Source: Gammaproteobacteria bacterium (GTDB lineage Bacteria > Pseudomonadota > Gammaproteobacteria > SZUA-229). From it: a stretch of 64,000 bases of DNA. Positions within the stretch are counted from its first letter, which is position 1, and each line of letters opens with the position of its first letter. A model generated the notes under the pieces. It ran no database searches, was not told where the DNA came from, and was given only the letters and a program-made list of their open reading frames with translations. Below, piece by piece: positions 27,285 through 29,698 of this stretch. The DNA is taken from NCBI GenBank assembly GCA_016744065.1, contig JADGFA010000018.1, positions 1 through 64,000 on the forward strand, in the 5' to 3' direction. The position numbers and the translations under genes were made by a program.

Positions 27285-28049
27285 TCAAGCTGTTTTACTT
27301 GGGCAATCAGAGGTGGTGCAGTGATCAGAAATTCCAGCTAATGTTTTGAGTGCCTGTAACTTGTGGATATTTACATATTTTCTCTGAGTTGATAGCAACC
27401 CCTCACTCTGAAAGCGGCTAAATGTGCGGCTAATGGTTTCTATCGTTAATCCTAGATAGTTGCCAATATCTTTACGTGACATGGTGAGGTTAAATTCAGT
27501 TTCAGAAAAATTACGGGCTTTCAGGCGACTAGACAGGTTTACCAGAAATGCAGCCAGTCGTTCGTCTGCGCTTTTTTGTGCCATCAGCATCAATAATGAC
27601 TGATCACCGGCAATTTCTTTACTCATAATACGGAATAGCTGGTGGTGCAATTCAGGTATTTTGCTGCTTAGATCTTCCAGTGTTTCAAATGGCAGCTCAC
27701 ACAGGCTGGTAGTTTCCAGTGCAATAGCAGAGCACGGGTGTTTGCCGTCATGGATGGCGTCAAGGCCGATGAGTTCACCTGGCAAATACAGGCCTGTGAT
27801 CTGTTCGTCCCCCTGTTCGCTTTCAGTAAAGGTCTTAATCGAGCCGCTGCGAACCGCAAAGATAGAGGTGAAGATATCACCGCTATTAAATAGATATTCA
27901 CCCTTGTGTAGTGGTCGGCTGCGTTTAACAATTTTATCCAGCCTGTCGATATCACCTATATCAAGGCCAAGAGGCAAACAAAGGTCGTGTAGACTGCAGC
28001 TTTGACAAGCTGTTTTCAGGGCTGATAATTTAATGGATGTAGTTGTCAT
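27285..28049 (-). CDS. fnr: Oxygen-sensing regulator Fnr (CRP/FNR family)
   Basis: Global anaerobic regulator using an oxygen-labile [4Fe-4S] cluster. 254 residues. The ligands align with Escherichia coli Fnr: C15, C18, C24 and C117 (in LCELPFETL), the same 102-residue span as C20 to C122. A cAMP-binding-like beta roll follows, then the DNA-reading helix in [19 protein letters not shown], where E, S and R are the specificity residues for TTGAT half-sites. A palindrome close to an FNR box lies about 113 bases upstream, suggesting autoregulation. bolA lies upstream on the same strand. Confidence 0.95.
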
Positions 28050-28155: not shown

Positions 28156-28169
28156 TTGACTTAAGTCAA
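28156..28169 (-). promoter_or_regulatory. FNR-like palindrome upstream of fnr
   Basis: TTGACTTAAGTCAA, inside a perfect 16-bp palindrome (28155-28170). It differs from the FNR consensus TTGAT-N4-ATCAA at one base per half-site. A TATAAA at 28135-28130 on the minus strand would place a start near 28123 with the site centred near -40. Confidence 0.5.
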
Positions 28170-28230: not shown

Positions 28231-28539
28231 TTATTTGCCTCCACCCATACATGGAGGTGACTTGGGCGCTGAGCCTTTCTCAGCCCATTCGTCTGGCGTC
28301 ATGGTATGTAATGCAAGTGCATGAACAGGGCCTTCAAGTTCTTCAGCGAGTGCCTTGTTTATAATACGATGTCGAGCTATCAGCATTTTTCCATTAAATT
28401 CGTTGGATACAGCGATAATTTTAAAATGAGATTCGGAGCCTGGAGGTACATTATGCATATCACTTTCATTGTTCACATCCAGGTATTCAGGTTTAAGTAT
28501 TTCTTGTAATTTTTCAATGATATCGTTTTCTATGCTCAT
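28231..28539 (-). CDS. BolA/IbaG family protein
   Basis: 102-residue small protein of the BolA family, which partners with monothiol glutaredoxins in Fe-S cluster handling. Visible: the KH-like fold, an HFKIIAVSNEFNGKMLIARHRIIN core with the conserved His in RHR, then VHALALHTMTPDEW. The C-terminal tail (PPCMGGGK) adds a cysteine. The two subfamilies cannot be separated with certainty here. It is upstream of fnr on the same strand and downstream of the structured region 28614-28917, which may be its leader. Confidence 0.9.
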   Translation of the reverse strand: MSIENDIIEKLQEILKPEYLDVNNESDMHNVPPGSESHFKIIAVSNEFNGKMLIARHRIINKALAEELEGPVHALALHTMTPDEWAEKGSAPKSPPCMGGGK

Positions 28540-28613
28540 GCTTAAGCTCTATAAAATGGGAGTGAAAACCTATTTTAACAAGAATATATTAGAATAGTTG
28601 CTTTTTTAAGGGC

Positions 28614-28655
28614 AAAAAAAAGAGCCGACTACCACACGAAGTGGTGGCTGGCTCT
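28614..28655 (-). terminator. Intrinsic terminator of the structured RNA upstream of bolA
   Basis: Stem of up to 15 bp (AGAGCC paired with GGCTCT at the base; 28621-28655) followed on the minus strand by eight U. Two A-C mismatches interrupt the stem in the minus sense, and only one in the plus sense. However, the long U-tract exists only in the minus direction; plus has three T. It lies upstream of bolA, so it ends or attenuates whatever is transcribed from the FNR-type promoter. Confidence 0.75.
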
Positions 28656-28667
28656 TTAACTCCCCCC

Positions 28668-28867
28668 CAGGAGATTCCTTACATTCTGGTTAAGTATGAA
28701 CCCTGTCAGTACTCAGCCAGTAGATTCTTTCAAGCCTGAGATGGTACGAAGTTTGTTCGTATTCCCTCAGGAGATTCTTTACAACCTGAGCCTGTACGAT
28801 GTCTGTTCGTACTCCCTCAGGAGATTCTTTATATTCTAGTTAAGTGCGAGTTCTGTCAGCACCTAAT
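28668..28867 (-). repeat. Four imperfect 50-bp tandem repeats with hairpins
   Basis: Units begin at 28668, 28718, 28768 and 28818, an exact 50-bp period. Each starts with CAG(G/T)AGATTC and contains a hairpin later in the unit. The stem sequence differs between units but pairing is kept: GTAC/GTAT-type in units 1 and 2, GTACGA/TCGTAC in unit 3, GTGC/GCAC in unit 4. A second stem CTCAGG/CCTGAG spans a unit junction. No spacer sequence separates the units. Confidence 0.9.
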
Positions 28868-28923
28868 CAAAAAATGGGTTATAAACCTGAATTATTGTCG
28901 TTATCGGGCTTAACTATGGATAG

Positions 28924-28965
28924 AGCATAGAGAGTTGCTGTGAAATGAGCATTGATTTAAATCAA
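28924..28965 (-). promoter_or_regulatory. Class II FNR-dependent promoter
   Basis: TTGATTTAAATCAA at 28952-28965 matches the FNR consensus exactly in both half-sites. On the minus strand TATGCT (28929-28924) is a fair -10. A start seven bases past it, near 28917, puts the box centre (28958.5) at -41.5, the standard activating position. It sits just beyond the bpt stop codon. Confidence 0.75.
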
Positions 28966-28996
28966 TAAAATACATTTAGTTAATTATTTACGGATT

Positions 28997-29698
28997 TTAA
29001 AATACTTGCCAGTTATCCTGTTGATAGACTTCTAGTCCGGAAAAGTTGCGTTTGTATTGCATTTTTGGGTGGTTTTCGATCCAGTATCCCAGGTACAGGT
29101 GTGTTTTTTGATAAAGTCTGGCAAGCCAGATTTGTTGTAATATTGCAAAAGTGCCCAGGCTGCGTTTATGCTCTTCCGGTTCAAAGAATGTGTAAACAGC
29201 AGAAGGACCGGCAGGCAGAAAATCTACAACTGCAACAGACAATAATTTATCTTTAAAGCGTGACTCAATAAATATACTTGTATTCCAGTTATTTAATAAA
29301 AAATTACTAAAATCATCAGGCATTGGGTCGACCATATTGCCATCTTTGTGTCGGCTATTTAAATAACGGCTATAAAGGGAAAAATATTCGTCTTTAAATT
29401 CTGCGGGTTTAAGGTATGTGATCAAATCCTGATTGTTTTTTAGGCAGCGCCGTTGATTACGGCTGACTTTGAAGTTATCTATATTAATTCGACAGGGAAT
29501 GCAGGCTGAGCATTGTTTGCAATGCGGCCGATAAACAAATTCACCACTGCGTCTGAAACCTTTACTGAGTAGCAGGCTATATAATTTGGAGTCTATCTCT
29601 ATCTGAGGATCAGGAATCAGATTAGAGGTCTGGCGATCGTCATAATAACCACATTCATGTTCTGCGGTGATATATAAACTAAGGTGTTGTGAATTCAT
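28997..29698 (-). CDS. bpt: Aspartate/glutamate leucyltransferase (Bpt)
   Basis: N-end-rule enzyme that moves Leu from tRNA to proteins starting with Asp or Glu, marking them for ClpS/ClpAP. 233 residues. It begins with the conserved CGYYDDRQTSNLIPDP and contains the cysteine motif YRPHCKQCSACIPCRI and YLGYWIENHPKMQYK. It is related to eukaryotic arginyltransferase (Ate), but this short form is the bacterial Bpt type. The FNR-type promoter starts right behind its stop codon. Confidence 0.92.
   Translation of the reverse strand: MNSQHLSLYITAEHECGYYDDRQTSNLIPDPQIEIDSKLYSLLLSKGFRRSGEFVYRPHCKQCSACIPCRINIDNFKVSRNQRRCLKNNQDLITYLKPAEFKDEYFSLYSRYLNSRHKDGNMVDPMPDDFSNFLLNNWNTSIFIESRFKDKLLSVAVVDFLPAGPSAVYTFFEPEEHKRSLGTFAILQQIWLARLYQKTHLYLGYWIENHPKMQYKRNFSGLEVYQQDNWQVF

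Follow-up and report, generated by a model that had tools for sequence, protein, structure and literature searches.

We found that the DNA between ate/bpt and bolA, in a 64,000-nt stretch of a SZUA-229 gammaproteobacterial contig (JADGFA010000018.1; hereafter the window), very probably encodes an oxygen-controlled small RNA that is conserved across seven genera of one family of uncultured bacteria from marine and sediment settings. The reading we favor, to which we give a probability of roughly 0.7, is a stand-alone, FNR-activated, trans-acting sRNA whose core would block Shine-Dalgarno regions, with atpE as its best target. In anoxia such an RNA would probably lower some components of aerobic energy metabolism, for example ATP synthase. 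SZUA-229 bacteria have been described as sulfur oxidisers of hydrothermal vents, one of them as a tubeworm symbiont (PMC9769843, PMC12045306). An earlier note on this DNA had suggested an FNR- or oxygen-regulated sRNA that is an analogue, not a homologue, of FnrS or PhrS; the comparison of 16 genomes and the lack of an Rfam match now lend this strong support. The features of the locus are collected in Table 1.

Table 1. Features of the sRNA locus and its neighbors, in window coordinates.
Feature	Position	Strand	Basis or remark
ate/bpt, arginyl-tRNA--protein transferase, upstream neighbor	28997..29698	-	Pfam PF04376/PF04377
FNR box TTGATTTAAATCAA, perfect palindrome, centre -41.5	28952..28965	-	direct reading
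-10 hexamer TATGCT	28924..28929	-	22 nt 3' of FNR box
Predicted sRNA, ~304 nt	28614..28917	-	promoter-to-terminator span; fold z -4.1
Module 1, diverged hairpin without GAAUCUCCUG linker	28828..28870	-	
Module 2, linker seed GAATCTCCTG (28818-28827) and hairpin	28778..28827	-	
Module 3, linker seed GAATCTCCTG (28768-28777) and hairpin	28728..28777	-	
Module 4, decayed seed GAATCTACTG (28718-28727) and hairpin	28678..28727	-	
Invariant core CTCCTGGGGGGGAG, anti-Shine-Dalgarno CUCCU and G7, proposed targeting sequence	28660..28673	-	identical in 16/16 homologues
Intrinsic terminator, stem 28619-28657 and U8 28614-28621	28614..28657	-	
Separate extended -10 of bolA, TGTTAAAAT	28572..28580	-	TGnTAnnnT
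bolA (BolA family), downstream neighbor, outside the RNA	28231..28539	-	Pfam PF01722, E 9.8e-29
fnr (CRP/FNR family), likely activator of the sRNA	27285..28049	-	

Homologues were gathered by a DNA search, which supplied four other genomes of the window's genus, and from BolA-linked loci. Together they yielded 16 different loci, and the family is represented by seven genera (five loci from the window's genus, g1; one each from g4, g5, g6 and g8; three from g7; four from g10), and those RNA-bearing genomes that have names are metagenome-assembled Gammaproteobacteria. At each of these loci bolA is the gene directly downstream of the unit, and the predicted RNAs are 62-350 nt long. A 17-mer around the core, allowing at most one mismatch, was present in 13 of 54 family genomes and g10 variants of it in three further genomes; the reversed control gave 0. 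When an RNA model was run over 369 sampled genomes of the class, family members scored 64-72 bits and all others 34 bits or less. We inspected 27 of the outside matches and found that they have neither core nor FNR box and resemble ordinary terminators. Beyond the family, the core pattern returned only chance-level 17-mers from the same 369 genomes. Other genera of the family lack the unit, and there ate is followed by bolA without the unit between them, or bolA is found elsewhere. On a weakly resolved BolA tree the RNA-bearing genera fall together, with two state changes. At gathering score, neither the complete window nor the 11 homologous loci searched had an Rfam match, and the sRNA locus had none at E <= 1. 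No ORF of at least 60 aa overlaps positions 28540-28996.

The start predicted at 28917 places the center of the FNR box at -41.5, where it would replace the -35 element, and this is the geometry of a class II FNR promoter. Comparison shows that the geometry is kept: a TTGA[T/C]N4[A/C/G]TCAA box stands at the equivalent position in 16/16 homologues, and its distance to the TAnnnT hexamer is exactly 22 nt in every one of them, the start position itself being predicted. The g10 box has one half-site base changed (TTGATN4CTCAA). A standard sigma-70 scan of the locus did not flag the sRNA promoter, as would be expected where a class II promoter has no -35 element; the same scan also missed the sRNA terminator.

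Directly 5' of the terminator, all 16 homologues carry the 14-nt sequence CUCCUGGGGGGGAG with zero variation. The core is able to form a 5-bp hairpin; its lack of any variation argues for constraint on the sequence and not on structure alone. The shortest homologous RNA, that of g4, has 62 nt and consists of core and terminator only. The terminator behaves differently, its sequence varying across homologues with pairing kept. Compensatory changes were seen at 11 of its 15 pairs, two-sided changed cells numbered 45 against 14.4 in shuffles, and none of 500 shuffles reached an equally high covariation for the whole structure. With its own predicted promoter, its own terminator, a long U-tract and a position apart from the downstream gene, the unit has, at the level of sequence, the attributes of an intrinsically terminated trans-acting sRNA.

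Folding is better than in shuffled sequence on either strand (z of -4.1 for minus and -4.4 for plus), so energy alone cannot give the strand. In the minus sense the ratio of G-U pairs to A-C mismatches is 28:17 in the modules and 22:4 in the terminator, and this balance, together with the promoter and the U-tract, argues for the minus strand. A plus-strand RNA was considered and rejected: its folding energy is as good, but its U-tract is wrong and its G-U balance worse. The earlier note had read from the window a perfect FNR palindrome at -41.5 from a predicted start, a stem followed by eight U at 28614, and a preference for the minus strand. All three hold in the window and, for the 22-nt spacing, in every homologue.

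Upstream of the core, the RNA of the window carries a four-copy array with copy spacings of 50, 50 and 50 nt. Identity at lag 50 is 65%; in 2000 shuffles no lag gave more than 44%. The module linkers copy the 5' half of the core, GAAUCUCCUG, and both core and linkers contain UCUCCU, which is complementary to Shine-Dalgarno sequences. This RNA has three intact seeds, in module 2, in module 3 and in the core; the seed of module 4 reads GAAUCUACUG, and module 1 has no seed. In a comparison of 17 modules taken from five species, 85% of stem cells are paired, against 34-46% in slid controls, and 7 of 13 stem pairs are changed on both sides. In the predicted fold of the window's transcript, adjacent modules 2 and 3 pair with each other (p ~0.64) more than within their own stems (~0.35), and the seeds are partly paired. 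We also observed a second type of hairpin insert of about 50 nt, AAAAGTTA.AAGACCTCATATT...GTGATT.ATGGGGTAT, between the modules of two g1 genomes, once in G053 (L023) and twice in G052 (L024).

The 50-nt modules are confined to g1 and absent from the other RNA-bearing genera. Within g1 their number varies: four in the window, two in G051, three each in G052 and G053, and five in G050. The repeats are a genus-level expansion and not the conserved heart of the RNA. The earlier note had reported four repeats of 50-bp period with pairing-preserving stem changes, and both observations stand, the second with the qualification that modules 2 and 3 cross-pair. It had also put its emphasis on the repeats. 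The array is real, but it is genus-specific (two to five copies), and the invariant CUCCUGGGGGGGAG core had not been singled out. The note had further held that its reading would be refuted if close relatives had lost both repeats and FNR box while keeping bolA-fnr. The repeats are indeed missing from other genera, but the FNR box is kept in 16/16 homologues and the whole unit is absent only from more distant genera.

The conserved segment is complementary to the Shine-Dalgarno regions of the candidate targets predicted here. The best-supported of these is atpE, which encodes ATP synthase subunit c. Its duplex with the core is the third best of 1698 gene starts at -23.1 kcal/mol (mean -9.2, sd 3.6), a ranking that covers 2.12 of 3.88 Mb, or about 55%, of the window's genome (G000). 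A 12-nt block of the atpE leader, TCTCACAGGAGA, is present in 10/10 RNA-bearing genomes examined outside g10 and precedes atpE in 0/11 RNA-less genomes. Duplex energies are -17 to -24 kcal/mol in these ten genomes and range from -17 to -26 over the RNA-bearing genera tested except g10. In the RNA-less leaders TAGGAGA is present but the TCTCA part upstream of it is not, and the duplexes have -11 to -18. In G032, 19 nt of the RNA, UAAUCUCCUGGGGGGGAGU, pair with atpE with a single bulge (-25.8 kcal/mol), and in both G032 and the window's genome the pairing takes in nearly the whole core. Pairing of this extent would explain the invariance of the core, including its G run. The association with atpE possibly reflects a single event, since the RNA-bearing genera fall together in the weak BolA tree, and the leader sequence TCTC-ACAG-GAGA could alternatively be kept for a hairpin of its own. 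Strong duplexes are also more frequent than expected, with 14 starts at -20 or better against a mean of 3.6 and a maximum of 10 for 60 shuffled cores, but pairing with many gene starts is to be expected of any anti-Shine-Dalgarno sequence.

Less securely, ctaC, which encodes subunit II of the aa3 cytochrome c oxidase, may be a second target; its function was part of the reason for choosing it from among the top-ranked starts. Its duplex has -21.6 in four g1 species. In the window's genome it has rank six among the 1217 starts of a first list and is missing from the second list of 1698, probably as the start-picking rule chose another start. In g4 there is a perfect 12-nt match within ACCCCCAGGAGAT (-26.5 to -26.9). 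ctaC is divergent in g7 and g10, it has no good pairing with the core in g7 (-9.6), and five RNA-bearing genomes gave no ctaC match. In g10 both the atpE and the ctaC leaders pair poorly (-12.5, -13.2; -9.7), and g10 keeps the RNA and the core. This suggests that the RNA has other targets there or that the target model is incomplete. As a separate observation, the g1 ctaC leader (L262:426, on contig C15 of G000) reads CTTTACTCCAGGGGGTAAAAATG, is identical in four species, can form a hairpin, and is without the CAGGAG Shine-Dalgarno found in RNA-less genera.

Pattern searches at gene starts gave a few further candidates. The perfect-complement pattern CCCCAGGAG...ATG recurred in RNA-bearing genomes at one DUF2244-like gene, in g7 only. 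All three g7 species (L107-L109) have CCCCAGGAGGCT.AATG, complementary to the core, at the start of this gene, a possible lineage-specific target. With the pattern CAGGAGATT...ATG, atpE was recurrent. The same CAGGAGATT was seen at the starts of two other genes, each in two or three genomes, whose products are a DsrJ-like multihaem cytochrome (L169 in G032 and L179 in G033; g7 and g8) and a Tll0287-like haem protein (L166 in G053 and L163 in G051; g1). Both may be counted as candidate targets.

The same FNR-driven RNA might instead work on protein, its core and modules binding a CsrA-, Hfq- or ProQ-type partner and the number of modules setting the capacity, as in CsrB or RsmZ. We consider this unlikely. 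A module number that varies from 0 to 5 does resemble a titration array, the invariant core lies in hairpin-forming sequence, and the loops are A-rich with ARN-like triplets. A CsrA/RsmA sponge carries multiple ANGGA motifs in its loops, however, and the GGA found here falls outside them: it belongs to module stems or to the 3' arm of the hairpin formed by the core, and hairpin loops do not conserve it as a motif. The minimal g4 RNA, a single core and a terminator, would make a poor sponge, and such a role would leave unexplained why conserved leaders match the anti-Shine-Dalgarno sequence.

Less likely still is an FNR-controlled leader of bolA-fnr, in which transcription would either stop at the terminator or read through into bolA, a possibility that the earlier note had left standing. 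The RNA shares strand and orientation with bolA, and the unit, where present, is always directly upstream of it. bolA appears, however, to have a promoter of its own. Of 36 genomes, 33 have TGnTAnnnT 5' of bolA, where shuffling would predict about 10%: it lies between terminator and bolA in 14 of the 16 RNA-bearing genomes and occurs in 19 of the 20 RNA-less ones. A separate bolA promoter, with or without the RNA, suggests that the RNA is most likely its own transcription unit. Moreover, covarying changes preserve the terminator, we saw no conserved antiterminator that could compete with it, and on inspection the core is not complementary to any conserved bolA leader. Further downstream, between bolA and fnr, there is a second FNR-like palindrome, TTGACTTAAGTCAA, at 28156-28169, some 107 bp before fnr begins, which may point to fnr autoregulation. 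The fnr product has, by eye, what we take to be the N-terminal cysteine cluster and fourth cysteine of FNR, assigned after E. coli FNR. Finally, a neutral REP- or MITE-like hairpin array beside an FNR site by chance would account for tandem repeats that differ in number between species, but is highly improbable given that the window's own genome has no second copy, that the element always occupies the same locus, that 16 genomes conserve its promoter, core and terminator, and that its stems show compensatory changes.

Comparison of the genomes shows the promoter geometry, the terminator, the strand, the invariant core, the changing number of modules and the separateness from bolA; FNR activation in vivo, use of Hfq, pairing, targets and the direction of regulation are inferred. 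As a trans-acting sRNA, the RNA would act as follows. In anoxia FNR would bind the -41.5 box and recruit RNA polymerase in the class II manner, and the ~304-nt transcript would end at the U8 terminator. The core, AUCUCCUGGGGGGGAGU, would then pair with Shine-Dalgarno regions and block translation, probably with Hfq; an hfq gene is present, and a U8 tail suits Hfq. In g1 the module seeds would assist the core, so that a few energy-metabolism mRNAs would be repressed at ribosome binding, and with several seeds per RNA (three here) one transcript could pair with several mRNAs or form tighter complexes. Because the predicted fold leaves the seeds only partly open, a chaperone or refolding would be needed. 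Repression of atpE and ctaC would fit an RNA made while FNR is active.

Several known sRNAs resemble parts of this scheme. FnrS of E. coli and other enterobacteria is an FNR-controlled sRNA; it builds up when oxygen is missing and reduces aerobic functions. PhrS of Pseudomonas aeruginosa is an ANR-dependent sRNA that activates pqsR translation via an upstream ORF. The RNA described here would share with FnrS both FNR control and the lowering of aerobic functions, but it has no sequence or structure similarity to it (no Rfam match even at E 1), other neighbors and another seed; FnrS is not known to have tandem modules, and FnrS targets such as sodB are not among the targets predicted here. FnrS is named in PMC8595263 and PMC11340327. 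With PhrS the predicted likeness is activation by an FNR-type regulator; there is again no Rfam match, and the upstream-ORF mechanism is not proposed here. Alphaproteobacterial cuckoo RNAs are anti-Shine-Dalgarno multi-seed sRNAs, and to our knowledge no module array is known for AniS. AniS is a Neisseria meningitidis sRNA dependent on FNR and Hfq (Fantappie et al. 2011, as cited in PMC9973317). Compared by literature only, it is similar in its FNR dependence and low-oxygen induction, both predicted here, and differs in sequence, locus and bacterial group. The Neisseria sibling sRNAs NgncR_162/163, or NmsR/RcoF, are likewise anti-Shine-Dalgarno multi-seed sRNAs (PMC9973317, PMC5362039). The sibling and cuckoo RNAs use single-stranded or hairpin anti-Shine-Dalgarno segments to block the ribosome sites of central-metabolism mRNAs and occur in tandem arrangements. 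Their seed and regulator differ from those proposed here, and the Neisseria siblings, compared by literature only, are separate sRNAs, whereas here two to five modules would lie within one FNR-driven transcript. We found no description of the present RNA in open-licence papers.

The RNA would extend the short list of sRNAs controlled by FNR with a family that has no Rfam match and lies outside the model enterics, Pseudomonas and Neisseria. Its evolutionary record is unusually clear, with an invariant 14-nt core, a fixed promoter geometry and the gain of seed modules within one genus. Natural variants with 0, 2, 3, 4 and 5 modules make the question of why sRNAs carry many seeds directly testable. 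If the predicted targets are true, the RNA would provide a post-transcriptional route from oxygen loss to less synthesis of the ATP synthase c-subunit and a terminal oxidase. More tentatively, and at odds that we would place short of even, this may be an oxygen-sensing sRNA family in which the pairing element has been amplified within the transcript, from one to about six copies, with evolution tuning the number of anti-Shine-Dalgarno seeds per RNA; in chemosynthetic gammaproteobacteria the family would link FNR to how much ATP synthase c-subunit and aa3 oxidase is translated.
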